The translations under genes were made by a program, and so were the position numbers. Shown here one piece after another: positions 35,557-42,154 of a stretch of 50,026 bases of DNA (positions are counted from its first letter, which is position 1; every line of letters starts with the position of its first letter). The stretch is taken from assembly GCA_003132425.1 (NCBI GenBank), contig PKXS01000021.1, positions 1 through 50,026 of the forward strand, given 5' to 3'. The stretch comes from Gammaproteobacteria bacterium. GTDB lineage: Bacteria > Pseudomonadota > Gammaproteobacteria > Steroidobacterales > Steroidobacteraceae. The notes beneath the pieces are model-generated. The model ran no database searches. It was not told where the DNA came from and saw only the letters and a list, made by a program, of their open reading frames with translations.

Positions 35557-37524
35557 ATGTTGCCAAGACGCCTGCTAGTCGCCAATCGAGGCGAAATCGT
35601 CTGCCGCATCGTGCGTACCGCTCGGCGCTTGGGGGTTACTACGATAGCCGTGTACTCGGACGCCGATCGAGGCGCGCGACACGTGCGCCTCGCCGATGAG
35701 GCATATCGTCTTGGCCCGTCCCCGGCGGCCGAAAGCTACCTCGACATCGCGCGGGTGGTTGCGTTGGCGCGGCGTGTGGGCGCCGACGCCGTGCACCCGG
35801 GTTACGGCTTTCTCTCGGAGAACGCTGCATTCGCGCAGGCCTGTGCCGATGCGGGCCTCCTCTTCATCGGGCCGCCGGCCTCCGCTATCAGCGCCATGGG
35901 GTCCAAAAGCGCGTCGAAGGCCGCCATGGCCGCCGTCGGGGTGCCGGTCGCGCCGGGTTATCACGGTGCGGAGCAATCTGCGGAGCGCCTGCGCAGCGAG
36001 GCCGAGCGTGTCGGATTTCCCTTGATCATCAAGGCCAGCGCCGGCGGCGGCGGCAAAGGCATGCAGGTGGTGCGGTCGGCCGCGGAGGTGCCTGCGGCGA
36101 TCGAATCGGCACAGCGGCTGGCGCGCACGGCATTCGCGGATGATCGCTTGCTTTTGGAGCGGTACTTTCCGCGTGCCCGCCACGTCGAAGTGCAGGTGTT
36201 CGCAGACTCGCACGGGCAAGTTCTCGCTCTGTACGATCGTGATTGCTCGGTGCAGCGCCGGCATCAAAAGATCATCGAGGAGGCGCCGGCGCCGGGCCTG
36301 CGCGACGAGGTGCGTGCCGGCATGGCGCAGGCCGCGGTCACTGCCGCCCGCGCGGTCGGCTACGTGGGTGCGGGAACGGTCGAGTTTTTGCTGGACGAGA
36401 AACAGCATTTCTACTTTATGGAAATGAATACCCGGCTGCAGGTGGAGCACCCGGTAACGGAACTGATCACGGGTATCGATCTGGTCGAATGGCAGCTGCG
36501 CATCGCGCAGGGCGAGGCGTTGCCGAAGCGCCAGGAAGAGATCGCGCTGCATGGGGCGGCCGTCGAGGCGCGTCTGTATGCGGAAGATCCGTCGCACGGC
36601 TATCTACCGAGCGTCGGCCGAATCGGTCACTTGCGCTGGCCGGCTGCTGCTGCCGCGCTACGGTTGGATAGCGGCGTCGACGCAGGCGATGATGTGTCAC
36701 CGTTCTACGATCCCTTGTTGGGCAAGATCGCCGCATGGGGCGAATCGCGCACCGAGGCGTGCGATCGGCTGCGCGAGGGGCTCGTGAGCCTCGAGATTAC
36801 CGGGGTGACCACCAATCGCGCGCTGCTGAGCAGTATTCTCGCCGACGAAGAGTTCCGCCGCGGCGCAGTCGCGACGAATTTTCTCGACGTCCGCCGCGAA
36901 CGATTGGTTTTCGGGGAGCCTAAGGCCTTGCCTGAGGACTATGTGCTGGCCGCGACTTGGTGCGCGACTCGGCAGATCGATCCTGCCGCGTTGTGGTCCG
37001 GCAGCAGCGGCTGGCGGTTGGCTGCTCCGGCCTGCACCCGCTGGCGGTTTGGGGAATTCGCAGTGACCGTTACGGAATCCGCGCCGCGGGAGTACGTGGC
37101 CCGCATGGACAAGCAGGAATACCCGGTACGGCTCATCGGACGCAGCGCGCAATCGCTGCACGTCGAGCTATCGGGACAGTCGCGGCGGCTCAACATCCTG
37201 GCGACTGGCGGGGAATTGCATCTGTTCGGGCGCGAAGGCCACGTGCGATTGCACTTGACCGAAACCGAGGATGCGTTGCAAGTCAGCGCCCATGCGGACG
37301 AAGGATCCTTGCTGACACCGCTGCCGGGAACGGTTGTCGCGGTGCATGTGAGCACCGGTCAACGGGTCTCGCGCGGGGCCGCGCTGGTGACCGTCGAAGC
37401 CATGAAAATGGAGCACACGTTGACTGCGCCCATCGACGGAGTGGTCACGCGCATCCCATTCGCGCTGGCGGATCGGGTGGCCGCCGGAGCCATCCTGGTC
37501 GAGCTGGCGCCAATTGACGACTAG
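35557..37524 (+). CDS. liuD: 3-methylcrotonyl-CoA carboxylase alpha subunit (biotin carboxylase and biotin carrier)
   Basis: The 655-residue protein has the biotin carboxylase N-terminus (LLVANRGEIVCRI), the ATP-grasp domain with KASAGGGGKGM, EMNTRLQVEHPVTE with catalytic residues, and a C-terminal carrier domain. The biotin is expected on K617 in the AMKM motif. ATG 35557 is the only plausible start. In many liu operons an enoyl-CoA hydratase gene lies between the two carboxylase subunits and a lyase gene follows; neither is here, so the pathway's last steps must be encoded elsewhere. Confidence 0.93.
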   Translation: MLPRRLLVANRGEIVCRIVRTARRLGVTTIAVYSDADRGARHVRLADEAYRLGPSPAAESYLDIARVVALARRVGADAVHPGYGFLSENAAFAQACADAGLLFIGPPASAISAMGSKSASKAAMAAVGVPVAPGYHGAEQSAERLRSEAERVGFPLIIKASAGGGGKGMQVVRSAAEVPAAIESAQRLARTAFADDRLLLERYFPRARHVEVQVFADSHGQVLALYDRDCSVQRRHQKIIEEAPAPGLRDEVRAGMAQAAVTAARAVGYVGAGTVEFLLDEKQHFYFMEMNTRLQVEHPVTELITGIDLVEWQLRIAQGEALPKRQEEIALHGAAVEARLYAEDPSHGYLPSVGRIGHLRWPAAAAALRLDSGVDAGDDVSPFYDPLLGKIAAWGESRTEACDRLREGLVSLEITGVTTNRALLSSILADEEFRRGAVATNFLDVRRERLVFGEPKALPEDYVLAATWCATRQIDPAALWSGSSGWRLAAPACTRWRFGEFAVTVTESAPREYVARMDKQEYPVRLIGRSAQSLHVELSGQSRRLNILATGGELHLFGREGHVRLHLTETEDALQVSAHADEGSLLTPLPGTVVAVHVSTGQRVSRGAALVTVEAMKMEHTLTAPIDGVVTRIPFALADRVAAGAILVELAPIDD

Positions 37525-39074
37525 GCAACCTGCGCGTCAGCGGCGCTCAACGTAGGCAGCGTTACTTTGAAGCGAGTCTCGTGTCCCAGCAGGCTGGCGA
37601 GTGCAATTCTGCCGCCGGCCTCGTGCACGTAGCGGCGCACCAAGGACATCCCGGCCCCATGCACCGCATCGCCGGGTGAATCCGCGATCGTCGTGTAGCC
37701 GGACCTGAATATCAATTTAATTGCCTGGCGATCCCGCAGCCTGGCAGCGGTCTCCGCGGTGAGCAGCCCTTTCGCGATGGCGGTGGCGCGTACCTGATCC
37801 GGATCGAGTCCGCCCCCGTCGTCCTGAAATAACAGCTCGAAGCTGTCGTCCGGCAGAGATTTGAACTCCAGGCGCAGGGTGCCGTGCGGCGGCTTGGCGG
37901 CGGCCTGGCGCGCTTGGGGCGTCTCGATGCCGTGCATGACGGAATTGCGAATCAGCTGGATGGCGATGTTCTTGACCGCTGCCTGATATTTTGGCGGCAC
38001 CAATTGCAAGCCGGTGCACTCGAGGACGACCGTCTTGGAGTGCTCTTGAGCAACGTGGTCGGTGAGCACCATCAGCGTGTTTTCCAGACTACCCGCCTGT
38101 GCTATGCGCTGCGTGCTGCGCGCGGCGGCCATTTCCGCGACGAAGCGGGGCGCATCAATAATTTGTGTACCGTTGTCCGTCATGCGCGGCCCCGGCGGCG
38201 GCGCCTCGCTCTGCGCGACGGGTCCGGCTTGCGCAGTGAGCGAGCGCAGCAACGCGAAGTGACCGTAAAGTTGATCGAGCTTTACCGCGAGCGGGAGAAA
38301 GTCACTGCCGCTCAGCGCGCTGCGGGTACGCAGCTCCTGCAGCGAGTCTTCGAAGAGCCGTGCCGCCGTTTCCAGCGCCGTTAGTTTGAGCGCCGCGCCA
38401 TCCTTTCTGACTCGATCGACCTCGCCCAAAGTCTCTTCCAGCTTCTCGCGAAACGCCTTTTGCTCGCGTGCCGGCTTTTTCAACACCGCGTTGATCGCCT
38501 TCATCGAGGCGTCAGTTTTGTGCAAGAATGCGGCGAAACGCGCTCCGCCGTTCTGCAAAACGCTGCGTAGAATCTCGGCCTGGGTGTGCAGTTGCGCCCG
38601 CAAGTCTTCCAGTTCGCGCGCGGTTTGTACACGCGTCGTAATATCGGTGACGCTCACCAGCCAAACGTAGGGATCTTCAGGAGCATCCATCTTGGTGAAT
38701 TCGAATGCGTAGTGTGCGGTCGCGAAGGAGCCGTCGAGGTTCGGCAGGCGCACCTCGACGTCCTGCAGCGGATTCGAATCGCCAGGCGCGGCGTGAGGCG
38801 TGGAAGCGAGCAGGCGGGCAATCTGATTGCGCACCGACGCGAGAGTCTTCGCATTGACGATGGGCTCGAGCAATTTATCAAAGATCAAATCGGCGAAATT
38901 CTGGCGCCGAAACAGTGTGGCAAGCGACTGCGACACTTGCGGCAGCAGCCGGCCGTCGGCATCGAGGAACAACAGGCCCTGTGCCGTAGTCTTGAGAATT
39001 GCTTCGCTTAGCCGGTCGCCGGCGCCGATCGGCTCCTGCTTTACGCGCTCGGAACGCTTGAAGCTCATGAACAT
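37521..39074 (-). CDS. PAS and CheA-type ATPase signalling protein with degenerate phosphotransfer domain
   Basis: The 517-residue cytoplasmic protein has a PAS-like region (about 20-145, ending VSVTDITTRVQ), a coiled coil (146-175), an Hpt-like helical region (175-250), and a CheA-type ATPase domain (about 330-510). The ATPase has N377 in LIRNSVMHGIE, DDGGG from 418 and a GAGMSLVRRYV G2 box. Aligning the Hpt region to the pattern VHRIKGDAAAL puts D220 where the phosphorylated His should be (VDRVRKDGAAL). No CheW-like domain follows the ATPase. The gene lies 121 bases downstream of a receiver-kinase gene on the same strand. It ends opposite the carboxylase gene with overlapping stops. Confidence 0.78.
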   Translation of the reverse strand: MFMSFKRSERVKQEPIGAGDRLSEAILKTTAQGLLFLDADGRLLPQVSQSLATLFRRQNFADLIFDKLLEPIVNAKTLASVRNQIARLLASTPHAAPGDSNPLQDVEVRLPNLDGSFATAHYAFEFTKMDAPEDPYVWLVSVTDITTRVQTARELEDLRAQLHTQAEILRSVLQNGGARFAAFLHKTDASMKAINAVLKKPAREQKAFREKLEETLGEVDRVRKDGAALKLTALETAARLFEDSLQELRTRSALSGSDFLPLAVKLDQLYGHFALLRSLTAQAGPVAQSEAPPPGPRMTDNGTQIIDAPRFVAEMAAARSTQRIAQAGSLENTLMVLTDHVAQEHSKTVVLECTGLQLVPPKYQAAVKNIAIQLIRNSVMHGIETPQARQAAAKPPHGTLRLEFKSLPDDSFELLFQDDGGGLDPDQVRATAIAKGLLTAETAARLRDRQAIKLIFRSGYTTIADSPGDAVHGAGMSLVRRYVHEAGGRIALASLLGHETRFKVTLPTLSAADAQVA

Positions 39075-39195
39075 GGATCAACAGGGTGCCAAACCCTTCA
39101 TCAGGGGGGCTTGATCAGTGTCACAGCCTAGTCCGCGCGGCAACAGTCCTGCACCGAGGTGGGACGCGAATGTGACGCCCGTCACAGGGCGAGGC

Positions 39196-40455
39196 TCAAG
39201 CGACGGCGGCGACCAGGGGACCCAAATCCGCCAACAGCTCGTCGGCGGAAGCATAGCGGCTGTGCAGTTGCTTGGCCATCAACCGATCGAGCAGCACTTG
39301 CTGCGCGGCGACGGCGGGCGGCAGAGTCGGCACGGGCGAACTGGACTGCTGCGCCATGATGGCCATGGCGCTGCGGCCGCTGTAGGGCTTCTGACCGGTC
39401 AGCATCTCGTAGAACATGACGCCCAGGCTGTAAAGATCCGTGCGCGCGTCCACGCGTTGCCCCTGCGCTTGCTCTGGACTGATGTAGTAGGGGGAGCCGA
39501 GCACTTGACCGGCGCCGGTCGTTCCGGCTTCGTCCATGGAACGGCGCGCCAGGCCGAAGTCGATGAGAACCGGTGAATTATCGTCTCGCAACATGACATT
39601 GGCGGGCTTGAGATCGCGGTGCAAAATACCGAATACGTGGATGACACGCAGCGCCTCGGCGATGGCGCGCAGATAGTACAGGCTCTCCTCCGTGCTGAGA
39701 GGATTACGCAACCGATCGCGCAAGTCGCCGCACGGAAAGTATTCCATGGCCAGATACAGGTGCTGCGGCAGCGTGCCAAAGTCGTAGATTTCGGCGATCG
39801 AGCGGTGAGCGATGCTCGATATGATCTCGTATTCCCGCTGGAAACGCTCCGCATCATCCAGCTCGCGCGAGCTCGTGCCGCGATTCATGACCTTGAGCAC
39901 GACATTGCGCCGCTGGCGTTCGCTCCTGGCGAGGAAAACGGACGAGAAATTACTGGTGGCGATCTCCTTGAGGATCGAATAACCGGGGACCTGAATGGAG
40001 GGCCCGTCGCCGCCGGGAGCGATGACGGCGTTGGCGGCGCTCGCCGCCGCGCGGCGCTTCGCACACGCCTCCGTGATCGCGGTCAGCAGGGTGTCGCGCG
40101 TGATCCGCGCCAACGGTAAATAGTCCTTCGCGCCGTTTCTCATGGCGCGGACGGCGCTGAGTTCGTCGCCGTTTTCCGCCAGCAAAATGCAGTACAGGCT
40201 GGGCTTAGCCCGCAGCATTTTCATCATGTGATTCAGAACGGCGTTGGCGCGCGCTTCATCGGCAAAATCGGCTTGCAGGATAACCGCGTCGGGTTCGCGG
40301 CTGTCGAGAAACTGGCTTAAGGTGGCGGACTCCCCGGCAGGCACGGTGGTGACGTCGGCATCCGGCCAATGACTGGTCATATGGTGGGTCAGCCATTGCA
40401 GGCGTTTGGTGTCGCCACCCACCACCAGCAGGATTGGGCCGGTCTGGTCTGCCAT
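39196..40455 (-). CDS. Receiver-like domain fused to a Ser/Thr protein kinase
   Basis: The 419-residue protein has an N-terminal receiver-like fold (about 7-130) and a C-terminal Hanks-type kinase (about 157-415). The kinase keeps the ATP Lys K188 (VVLKVM), HRDLKPAN with D281 and the DFG Asp D299, plus GSPYYISPEQ. Its glycine-rich loop is degraded: the three glycines are A166, S168 and S171. The receiver has lost its phosphorylation set: the acidic pair is G13-G14, the acceptor Asp position is Q61 and the switch Thr position is A93. No membrane helix is present. Partner unknown; the neighbouring CheA-type protein is the obvious candidate. Confidence 0.85.
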   Translation of the reverse strand: MADQTGPILLVVGGDTKRLQWLTHHMTSHWPDADVTTVPAGESATLSQFLDSREPDAVILQADFADEARANAVLNHMMKMLRAKPSLYCILLAENGDELSAVRAMRNGAKDYLPLARITRDTLLTAITEACAKRRAAASAANAVIAPGGDGPSIQVPGYSILKEIATSNFSSVFLARSERQRRNVVLKVMNRGTSSRELDDAERFQREYEIISSIAHRSIAEIYDFGTLPQHLYLAMEYFPCGDLRDRLRNPLSTEESLYYLRAIAEALRVIHVFGILHRDLKPANVMLRDDNSPVLIDFGLARRSMDEAGTTGAGQVLGSPYYISPEQAQGQRVDARTDLYSLGVMFYEMLTGQKPYSGRSAMAIMAQQSSSPVPTLPPAVAAQQVLLDRLMAKQLHSRYASADELLADLGPLVAAVA

Positions 40456-40672
40456 AGGAACTGATCTGCTATAAGGATACCCAGACTAGCCCTTGATGCG
40501 CCTCCTTGGCCCGTCGGGATTTCACATTTCTGGCTGCCTGGCCGGTTTCTGCCGCCCAAAAGGCGCGTGTCCCAAAAATGACCGGCATTTTGACTGGAAA
40601 ATTGAAACCAACGACCCGATTTAGGGGTCTGTAGACACTGTTAGGTCAACCCTTTGTAGAGGACGAATTTCA

Positions 40673-42154
40673 ATGGGAAGTATCAGAACTTGGTCGCTCG
40701 CGCTGCTCGCGGGTATCTTTGTTGTGATTGTCGCTCATCAGCGCTCCGATGCCGAGTCGGGACCGGCAACGTCGGCTCCGATCGCCGCCGCTGCGACCGC
40801 CGGTCCGCCGGCGCCCACGCCCGGTCGGGTGAGCGGCCTGCCTGATTTCTCCGAGCTGGTTGCCGCCAATGGCGCGGCCGTCGTGAATATCAGCGTGACG
40901 GAAAAAGCGCGGCGAGTCTCCGACTCGAGCGAGCAGGGGGAGAGCGACGATCCGCTGTCGCAATTTTTCCATCGCTTCAATATGCCGAACCCCGAGCACA
41001 TGCCGCCCACCCACGGCATCGGTTCGGGGTTCATTGTGAGCTCCGATGGATATGTGCTCACCAACGCGCATGTGGTAGCCGACGCCTCCGAGGTGACGGT
41101 CAAGCTCACCGATCGACGGGAATTCGCGGCCAAGGTGATCGGCGTGGACAAGCGCAGCGACATCGCGCTCGTTAAAATCGCCGCGACCGGTTTGCCCACG
41201 GTGCGTTTCGGCGATTCCTCGCGGCTGCGGCCCGGCCAGTGGGTGATCGCAATCGGCTCGCCGTTCGGCTTTGAAAACAGCGTCACCGCGGGTGTCGTCA
41301 GCGCCACGGCGCGCTCGCTGCCGGATGAGAACGGCGGCGGCGCAAACTCGGACGTGCCGTTCATTCAGACCGATGCGGCCATCAATCCCGGTAACTCCGG
41401 TGGACCGCTCTTCAATCTTGACGGTCAAGTGATCGGCATCAACGCGCAGATCTACAGCCGCACGGGCGGCTACATGGGCATGTCCTTCGCGATCCCCATC
41501 GACCTGGCCTTGAACGTGAAAGATCAGCTCATGAGCAAGGGCAAGGTGAGCCGCAGCCGAATCGGCGTGGGGGTGCAGGACATTAATCAGCAGCTGGCGC
41601 AGACTTTTGGACTGGGCAAGCCGCACGGCGCTCTGATCAGCTTCGTCGAGCCGAAGAGCCCTGGGGAGCGGGCGGGATTGAAACCGGGTGACGTGATCAT
41701 CAGTGTCAATGGGCGCAATATCGACCATTCCTGGGATTTGCCCCCGGTCATCGAGGAGCTTCCGCCCGGCACAATGGCGACTCTCGATATTTGGCGCGAC
41801 CGCAAGGCCACCGAGATCGGCGTCAAGACCGTATTGCTGGACGATGAACCGGCGCAGGCGGCGCGAGCCACTACCAGCGAGGACGGTGGCGGTAGACTGG
41901 GATTGGCGGTTAGACCCCTTAATCCCAATGAACAGCAGGAACTGCACACTCGCGGCCGCTTGGTGGTGGAGGACGTGACCGGGCCTGCGCTCGCAGCCGG
42001 GTTGCAGGCAGGCGATGTGGTCCTGGGCGTCAATGGTTCGGGCGTGGCGACGGTGGCGGACCTGAAGCGCGAGGTCGCGCGAGCCGGGCACAGTGTTGCC
42101 CTGTTGATCCAGCGTGAGAATGCGCAGATTTACATTCCGGTCGATTTGGGATGA
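40673..42154 (+). CDS. degP: Do/HtrA-family periplasmic serine protease
   Basis: The 493-residue protein has an N-terminal hydrophobic segment (signal or anchor), a trypsin-like domain with catalytic triad H133 (TNAHVV), D163 (SDIALVKI) and S242 (GNSGGPLF), then two PDZ domains (about 295-385 and 405-490). Length and two PDZ domains fit DegP/DegQ proteases, which degrade misfolded envelope proteins. GAGGA precedes the ATG by about 11 bases. The 217-base region upstream is shared with the divergent kinase gene. I see no convincing sigma-E promoter there. Confidence 0.92.
   Translation: MGSIRTWSLALLAGIFVVIVAHQRSDAESGPATSAPIAAAATAGPPAPTPGRVSGLPDFSELVAANGAAVVNISVTEKARRVSDSSEQGESDDPLSQFFHRFNMPNPEHMPPTHGIGSGFIVSSDGYVLTNAHVVADASEVTVKLTDRREFAAKVIGVDKRSDIALVKIAATGLPTVRFGDSSRLRPGQWVIAIGSPFGFENSVTAGVVSATARSLPDENGGGANSDVPFIQTDAAINPGNSGGPLFNLDGQVIGINAQIYSRTGGYMGMSFAIPIDLALNVKDQLMSKGKVSRSRIGVGVQDINQQLAQTFGLGKPHGALISFVEPKSPGERAGLKPGDVIISVNGRNIDHSWDLPPVIEELPPGTMATLDIWRDRKATEIGVKTVLLDDEPAQAARATTSEDGGGRLGLAVRPLNPNEQQELHTRGRLVVEDVTGPALAAGLQAGDVVLGVNGSGVATVADLKREVARAGHSVALLIQRENAQIYIPVDLG

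Follow-up and report, generated by a model that had tools for sequence, protein, structure and literature searches.

The gene pair and its conservation

The window analyzed here is the first 50,026 nucleotides of contig PKXS01000021.1 (assembly GCA_003132425.1), from a soil bacterium of the gammaproteobacterial family Steroidobacteraceae whose draft genome (4.1 Mb in 146 contigs) is 96.6% complete. Two consecutive genes on its minus strand encode a protein that joins a receiver-like domain to a Ser/Thr kinase (P0001) and a protein with PAS-like, Hpt-like, and CheA-type ATPase parts (P0002). An earlier note, made from the DNA letters alone, had read the genes in this order and on this strand, and had proposed that they form a two-part system in which the receiver and the phosphotransfer domain both lack their phospho-acceptors. 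Both reading frames proved to be as the note had given them. P0002 lies downstream of P0001, and no terminator-like sites are listed within the 121-bp gap between the two genes. The features of the pair are collected in Table 1.

Table 1. Genes, domains, and diagnostic residues of the pair (positions in the window)
Feature	Residues	Position	Strand	Remarks
P0001 gene		39196..40455	minus	419 aa, receiver-like domain + Ser/Thr kinase; reading frame confirmed
P0002 gene		37521..39074	minus	517 aa, PAS-like + Hpt-like + CheA-type ATPase; reading frame confirmed
Intergenic gap, P0001 to P0002		39075..39195	minus	121 bp
P0001 receiver-like (pseudo-receiver) domain	5-133	40057..40443	minus	predicted topology, hhalign, and PDB response regulators
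P0001 acidic-pair positions	G13-G14	40414..40419	minus	acid at either position in 0/21 orthologs (window included)
P0001 acceptor position	Q61	40273..40275	minus	17 Q, 3 H, 1 S, 0 D among 21
P0001, two residues past acceptor position	D63	40267..40269	minus	Asp in 21/21
P0001 switch Thr/Ser position	A93	40177..40179	minus	20 A, 1 S among 21
P0001 Hanks-type Ser/Thr kinase domain	155-410	39226..39993	minus	K188, E208, HRDLKPAN, and DFG kept; Gly-loop without glycines
P0002 PAS-like domain	~20-145	38640..39017	minus	predicted strands and helices; fastest-evolving of the five domains
P0002 long helix joining PAS to bundle	146-175	38550..38639	minus	predicted structure
P0002 Hpt-like four-helix bundle	177-282	38229..38546	minus	predicted structure and hhalign 99.8
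P0002 phospho-His site	D220	38415..38417	minus	18 D, 1 V, 1 S among 20 A-type rows; His 0/20
P0002 CheA-P4-like ATPase	328-509	37548..38093	minus	G1 box and N377 retained; partial erosion of G2 box

Orthologs of P0001 were found in 20 other genomes at 65–80% identity. The kinase, which together with its partner is termed A-type here, thereby occurs in 21 of the 217 genomes of the family and in 2 of its 25 genera. The ATPase gene lies directly downstream in 20 of these 21 genomes, although a contig end cuts it in two of them (G022 and G206); in the 21st (G020), both genes are located at contig ends. The search for co-occurrence that the earlier note had suggested as a check thus revealed a conserved pairing and bears out its view of a two-part system. 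Frames are open in the orthologs read, and the single flagged stop (G002) coincides with that protein's own frame end. Related loci were also surveyed, with 80 of 105 confirmed loci kept, and were sorted alongside the window pair (A) into sister pairs (A2), CheA-like proteins that mostly bear the His (B), and purF-linked receiver-kinases (C). For the alignment of P0002 relatives, 98 sequences were reduced to 64, to which the window was added; 34 Psychrobacter rows were dropped and 4 kept.

Loss of the phosphotransfer residues

Residues 8–145 of P0001 are predicted to adopt a (beta-alpha)5 fold, with strands b1 to b5 at residues 8–12, 34–38, 57–62, 89–93, and 111–114 and helices a1 to a5 at residues 16–29, 43–53, 67–83, 98–106, and 120–145. 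In this topology, G13/G14 fall at the end of b1, Q61 at that of b3, A93 at that of b4, and L115 at that of b5, in support of the receiver alignment. The Pfam Response_reg match of P0001 is below threshold (12.6 bits against a cut-off of 30.2; 45.5 bits for L054 of the purF-linked receiver-kinases). When compared with a profile of active-site-bearing receivers from related kinases, the A-type receiver profile gave an hhalign probability of 99.4, and it also matched solved response regulators (best E 8e-8). The receiver-like assignment and the Hpt-like assignment described below both rest on predicted topology and profiles, since matches to the kinase and ATPase domains took up the whole-model fold searches.

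Alignment and predicted topology agree with the earlier placement of G13-G14, Q61, and A93 at the acidic-pair, acceptor, and switch positions. The active-site Lys is replaced as well (L115 in P0001; Lys in none of the 21 orthologs). A pseudo-receiver is a receiver fold that lacks at least one of the five active-site residues, and in P0001 the acidic pair, acceptor, Thr/Ser, and Lys are all replaced. An acceptor Asp, which the note had named as an observation that would count against it, is found at residue 61 in 0/21 kinases, and no ortholog among the 21 has the acceptor Asp plus acidic pair of a working phosphorelay. Two acids nearby are kept throughout the A-type kinases: D63 and the acid at residue 15 (18 D, 3 E among 21). 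Nine B-type kinases (L084–L092) also carry an acid at residue 15 in 9/9 and a Glu two residues past the acceptor position in 8/9. The retained acids at 15 and 63 might form a metal-binding or docking site that has moved from its usual place.

The kinase domain of P0001 was recognized by Pfam Pkinase at 155.9 bits and, in the fold search, by PknB structures (Z 30.9, 1.8 A over 250 residues). K188, D281, and D299 (the catalytic Lys, HRD Asp, and DFG Asp), which the earlier note had listed as retained, are at these places in all 21 orthologs. The Gly-rich loop reads IATSNFSSV, and Gly is absent from positions 166, 168, and 171 in every one of the 21 A-type rows; B-type kinases deviate in this loop as well. 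The missing glycines may nonetheless be compatible with kinase activity. The best PADLOC match, to PD-T4-6 anti-phage kinases, covers residues 156–414, and P0002 has zero PADLOC matches at 1e-5. An anti-phage system is not supported, as the best matches span the kinase domain.

P0002 is predicted to consist of a PAS-like domain up to residue ~145, a helix (146–175), a bundle (177–282), a low-confidence linker (286–323), and the ATPase (328–509). The name PAS rests on predicted fold and position, as Pfam gave zero matches in that part of the protein. The predicted bundle helices span residues 177–199, 205–228, 232–249, and 256–282. Pfam Hpt was not found in P0002; three His-bearing relatives pass its cut-off of 24.6 bits (L084 at 32.0, L093 at 31.2, and L134 at 32.3). 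The A-type bundle aligned with the His-bearing Hpt domains of its relatives at an hhalign probability of 99.8, ungapped near the site. The profile of the A-type Hpt domains alone had no convincing PDB match, and the profile of His-bearing relatives matches CheA P1 structures; the A-type bundle is therefore linked to CheA P1 by way of these relatives. D220, located in the second predicted helix, occupies the phospho-His position, as the earlier note had held, and His, which it had named as the residue that would speak against it there, is absent from all 20 partners.

The ATPase matched Pfam HATPase_c at 40 bits and CheA P4 in the fold search (Z 22.4, 1.9 A over 169 residues). The earlier statement that the ATPase keeps N377 and its glycine boxes is correct in part: N377 and the G1 box (DDGxG) are intact in 19/19 A-type rows covering them, whereas the G2 box is eroded. 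In this box, V471 takes the place of the first Gly, and S477 that of the Asp/Asn following GxGM. Gly is present at position 471 in 39/45 other rows versus 1/20 A-type rows, and Asp/Asn at 477 in 43/45 other rows versus no A-type row; G473 is additionally lost in 4 of the 19 A-type rows covering the stretch. P0002 thus has the P4-type fold with N and G1 boxes that is expected of CheA. It has neither a His-bearing P1 (D220) nor a full-length match (85 bits against a cut-off of 950 for the CheA model NF041336). With a kinase-type ATP domain and the phospho-His replaced, it is a candidate pseudo-histidine kinase, a class that is also marked by a lack of autokinase activity.

Selection and correlated evolution

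Median pairwise ratios of nonsynonymous to synonymous substitution rates (dN/dS) among the A-type orthologs, calculated with pairs of dS over 2 left out, were 0.32 for the receiver-like domain, 0.27 for the Hpt-like domain, 0.26 for the ATPase, 0.12 for the kinase, and 0.55 for the PAS domain. Purifying selection acts on each of the two dead domains. The constancy of the replaced and neighboring residues (D220 in 18/20, D63 and D/E15 in 21/21 each, A93 in 20/21) indicates that these positions are not free to drift. Mean pairwise identity within the receiver-like domain is highest in b5 (0.88), a1 (0.80), and b4 (0.80) and lies far below a1 and b5 in a2 (0.36) and a3 (0.30). Among the stretches of P0002 that were measured, conservation peaks (0.91) in LSGxDFLPLA, with which the fourth helix of the bundle begins and which is largely common to the B type.

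Correlated divergence of the two proteins was assessed by Mantel tests on domain distances from which the distances of two neighboring genes, encoding a radical SAM protein and an aspartokinase-homoserine dehydrogenase, had been regressed out. Of 17 taxa, 13 were used, the others being genomes in which control genes were short or missing. The partial r was 0.45 for receiver-Hpt, 0.44 for receiver-ATPase, 0.61 for kinase-Hpt, and 0.48 for kinase-ATPase, with Mantel p of 0.0005–0.0175. The correlation persisted when HtrA, the product of the divergent neighbor described below, was added as a control, with 11 taxa (a near-identical trio thinned), or with 16 taxa (SAM and HtrA as controls, one genome dropped), at Mantel p of 0.0005–0.023 over the pairs of receiver or kinase with Hpt or ATPase. 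For the kinase against Hpt and ATPase together, the partial r was 0.67 with 13 taxa, 0.72 with 11, and 0.78 with 16, and leaving out one taxon at a time gave 0.60–0.70; the corresponding values for receiver against Hpt were 0.45–0.59 across the tests and 0.35–0.56. The PAS domain was uncorrelated with receiver, kinase, Hpt, and ATPase (r -0.35 to 0.06).

Relatives and the history of the losses

B-type CheA-like proteins, found from Psychrobacter to Rhodocyclaceae, are membrane sensors of Gamma- and Betaproteobacteria that share the PAS-Hpt-ATPase order with P0002 at 24–39% identity, and the ATPase tree places the ATPase of the pair inside this family. They are mostly about 650–760 aa long, with an N-terminal hydrophobic segment and 160–260 extra residues; P0002 is without such a segment. 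In two annotated B-type clusters (L084 from the same genome and L134 from Psychrobacter), CheY and CheX are encoded downstream, neighbors that the window pair does not have. The purF-linked receiver-Ser/Thr kinases (for example, L190, L197, L198, and L189), most of them encoded next to purF-type genes, share the architecture of P0001 at 35–42% identity. Among seven of these, the acceptor Asp is present in six, the switch Thr in four, and the Lys in five, whereas P0001 has none of the three; unlike for P0001, no CheA-like partner was seen next door.

At nine loci from the window's genus and one other (L084–L092), a Ser/Thr kinase gene is located directly upstream of the gene for a B-type protein, and here the receivers lack the acceptor Asp in 9/9 while the Hpt His is kept in 9/9. 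The three A2 loci have adjacent kinase and ATPase genes, Arg at the His site (L094, L130, and L135), and receivers that, read by eye, are without the acceptor Asp. With five more kinases that lack it (L057, L058, L059, L061, and L098), the acceptor is missing in 38/38 kinases read outside the purF group, comprising 21 A-type kinases and 17 from the B, A2, and TonB-linked groups. The His, which the window pair lacks, is present in 40/45 non-A rows, the exceptions besides A2 being Gln in L178 and Ile in L183; its loss is thus seen in A, A2, and this one distant pair of rows. Judged by these distributions, the loss of the acceptor Asp is older than, and separate from, that of the His.

In both trees, the window pair forms one side of a branch, with support of 93 for the kinases and 99 for the ATPases. 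Both are quick trees; the kinase tree leaves the branching of A, B, and A2 unsettled and warns of long branches. In the ATPase tree, A groups with A2 (support 85) and the loss of His takes 2 changes; the outgroup chosen for this tree did not fall on one side of a single branch. The simplest history, as far as this tree tells, would derive P0002 from a His-bearing, membrane-bound CheA-like ancestor that lost its membrane part and its His.

The window's genome holds further related genes. The paralogous cluster L084:3715-10149 encodes a TonB_C protein, a pseudo-receiver Ser/Thr kinase, a His-bearing CheA-like protein, CheY, and CheX. TonB_C proteins were also identified beside such kinase/ATPase genes in L093, L094, L097, and L102 by Pfam, and a similar protein in L196 by blastp. 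A third receiver-kinase (L103:4422-5666) lies beside purF, and its acceptor Asp is gone as well, the sole such loss among the seven purF-linked receiver-kinases. Four genomes that are 91–99% complete (G001, G006, G010, and G016) have the pair in the absence of a full-length B-type match, and dependence of the pair on a His-bearing paralog was rejected on these grounds.

Neighboring protease gene and upstream sequence elements

Divergent from the pair, and adjacent to it in 20/21 genomes, is the gene for an HtrA-type protease (40673–42154, plus strand). The HtrA ortholog and the A-type kinase each occur in 21 of 217 family genomes, of which 20 are shared. Divergence of HtrA showed no correlation with that of the receiver, kinase, Hpt, or ATPase domains (r -0.25 to -0.06, p above 0.6) and a weak one with that of the PAS domain (r 0.29, p 0.04). 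In one genome of the same genus (G018), the kinase is absent and a 46-residue remnant of P0002 lies between otherwise conserved neighbors, as would fit a single deletion of both genes; HtrA is kept there.

A putative ECF-sigma-like promoter, TGAAACC-N16-GGTCT, is located upstream of the HtrA gene (40603–40630, plus strand). A G[ACG]AAC[CA] element followed by GTC 16–17 bases on was detected in 17/18 loci scanned, and a similar ECF-sigma-like box is readable in G018 despite the loss of the pair there. A second conserved box (40516–40529), located upstream of the kinase gene, reads AAATGTGAAATCCC on the kinase strand, and its TCACA core recurs in 13/18 loci scanned.

Proposed mechanism and alternative explanations

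The reading that we favor, with a probability of roughly 45%, is that a Ser/Thr kinase is coupled to a soluble PAS/ATPase sensor through a contact between Hpt and receiver that involves no phosphotransfer. P0001 and P0002 would form a soluble two-protein switch in which P0002, a former CheA-like sensor with its PAS-like domain, Hpt bundle, and ATPase, would no longer phosphorylate itself on His, and P0001 would be a Ser/Thr kinase whose receiver no longer takes phosphate on Asp. The former Hpt-receiver contact would be retained as a docking surface. The grip of the pseudo-Hpt bundle on the pseudo-receiver would depend on PAS input and on the nucleotide state in which the ATPase is found, a changed grip would turn the attached kinase up or down, and the output would be Ser/Thr phosphorylation of target proteins. 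The docking, the direction of control from the ATPase protein to the kinase, and the activity of either ATP site are what we infer here. That the whole Hpt-receiver interface was converted on both sides, giving phosphate-free allosteric coupling of a GHKL ATPase sensor to a Ser/Thr kinase, is a tentative proposal.

The conservation of two dead domains and the correlated divergence of the two proteins are as expected if the domains are kept as an interaction surface, and the findings are consistent with a physical partnership that persisted after phosphotransfer was lost. The a1 and b5-a5 side of receivers is the usual docking face for Hpt domains and kinases in working relays. The conservation of a1, b5, and LSGxDFLPLA favors docking of the pseudo-receiver on the bundle, the kinase being tuned by ATP state and PAS input in P0002. 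Several observations weigh against this reading. The b5-a5 loop of the receiver-like domain is not specially conserved (0.57). The a1 motif HHxTSxWP is also conserved in the receiver-kinases beside purF, where no Hpt-bearing neighbor was seen, and conservation of a1 may therefore reflect contact with the protein's own kinase domain. The correlation comes from a single family (11–16 genomes), and the kinase domain shows it as strongly as the receiver does; it thus does not single out the receiver-Hpt contact. The two losses do not go back to one event, that of the Asp being the earlier and more widespread. With a glycine-less loop and an eroded G2 box, one or both ATP sites may be weak or dead, and the pair is dispensable, given its loss in G018.

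The main rival, which we regard as rather unlikely, reverses the direction of control: the kinase would dock through its pseudo-receiver and phosphorylate P0002 on Ser/Thr, and P0002 would be an effector acting on something else through its PAS/ATPase state. The co-evolution data fit this too, the kinase is the most constrained of the five domains and keeps its catalytic residues throughout, and a review (PMC12189002) documents cross-talk from Ser/Thr kinases to proteins of two-component systems; however, P0002 has no recognizable output domain beyond the ATPase, and it is P0002 that carries the input-looking PAS-like domain. It is improbable that the ATPase instead phosphorylates the Hpt His of another protein in trans, for example, that of the His-bearing paralog in the same genome, which has its own kinase, CheY, and CheX neighbors (L084). 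The split CheA pairs of Rhodobacter are a precedent for phosphorylation in trans, and N377 and the G1 box are kept, but the four genomes noted above have the pair and no full-length paralog match, and the G2 box is eroded, further so in 4/19 A-type rows.

The near-identical distribution of the HtrA gene, its divergent adjacency, and its conserved ECF-sigma-like promoter might suggest a three-gene module in which the pair serves the protease in envelope stress. Genes farther away are conserved too, so the shared position is partly plain synteny; with no correlated evolution for four of five domains, the weak PAS signal apart, and HtrA kept in G018 after loss of the pair, this was rejected as the principal explanation and is quite improbable. 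It is highly improbable that P0002 works in RsbW/PDK style, either as a Ser kinase of the GHKL type or as an anti-sigma-like switch, with the bundle binding the substrate. PDK/BCKDK, which combine a helical bundle with a GHKL ATPase, appear in the fold list at Z about 14, but bundles match widely at such Z, the alignments spanning bundle and ATPase have a root-mean-square deviation of about 15–16 A, and the ATPase groups with CheA by both sequence (27–28% identity) and fold (Z up to 22.4); on the fold-list evidence, the PDK-like reading was judged weak. That the genes are leftovers of a decaying phosphorelay without a joint function is hardly credible and already disfavored: the phosphotransfer residues are lost, G018 deleted both genes, and the PAS part evolves fast, but the dead domains have dN/dS of about 0.27–0.32, the frames are open, the new residues include invariant ones, and the two proteins evolve in correlation.

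Comparison with described systems and significance

Pseudo-receivers and pseudo-histidine kinases are each known separately, and the novelty here is thus their conserved pairing with a Ser/Thr kinase. DivL, a pseudo-histidine kinase of Caulobacter, resembles P0002 in that its phospho-His is replaced while PAS input and the ATP domain are kept, and it is described as binding a response regulator as a sensor without phosphotransfer (PMC4211667). It differs in having a DHp domain, in reading the phosphorylatable DivK~P, and in acting on CckA, whereas here the receiver is dead and fused to a Ser/Thr kinase. Osp, a receiver-like protein, is reported to inhibit CckA by binding (PMC9430884). FrzS, CmrT, and other pseudo- or aspartate-less receivers have, like P0001, a receiver fold without active-site residues; a 2025 review counts CmrT and FrzS alone as non-orphans among the 20 pseudo-receiver proteins it describes, leaving 18 orphans (PMC12632262). 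Unlike these orphans, P0001 has a conserved gene partner, which is itself His-less. According to the same review, Hpt domains without the His make up 0.9% (90 of 10,312) and receivers without the Asp 2.0% (PMC12632262). Among the cases listed in the review of Ser/Thr kinase cross-talk is the receiver-phosphatase protein PA3346 (PMC12189002). No description of such a pair was found in the literature searched, which included few subscription journals and no bioRxiv preprints.

The field itself regards the switching of pseudo-receivers as an open question (PMC12632262). With both sites lost in adjacent genes that evolve in step, the candidate partner is known, and direct binding and its effect on the kinase can be tested. 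The parts have precedents; it is the conserved pair with both phosphotransfer sites lost that makes the pseudo-receiver question directly testable, and the paralogous pair that this genome also encodes, which combines the same kind of dead receiver with a His-bearing Hpt, provides a built-in comparison. If the proposed mechanism is true, the pair would represent a mode of signaling in which two-component parts serve solely as a docking switch for eukaryotic-type phosphorylation.

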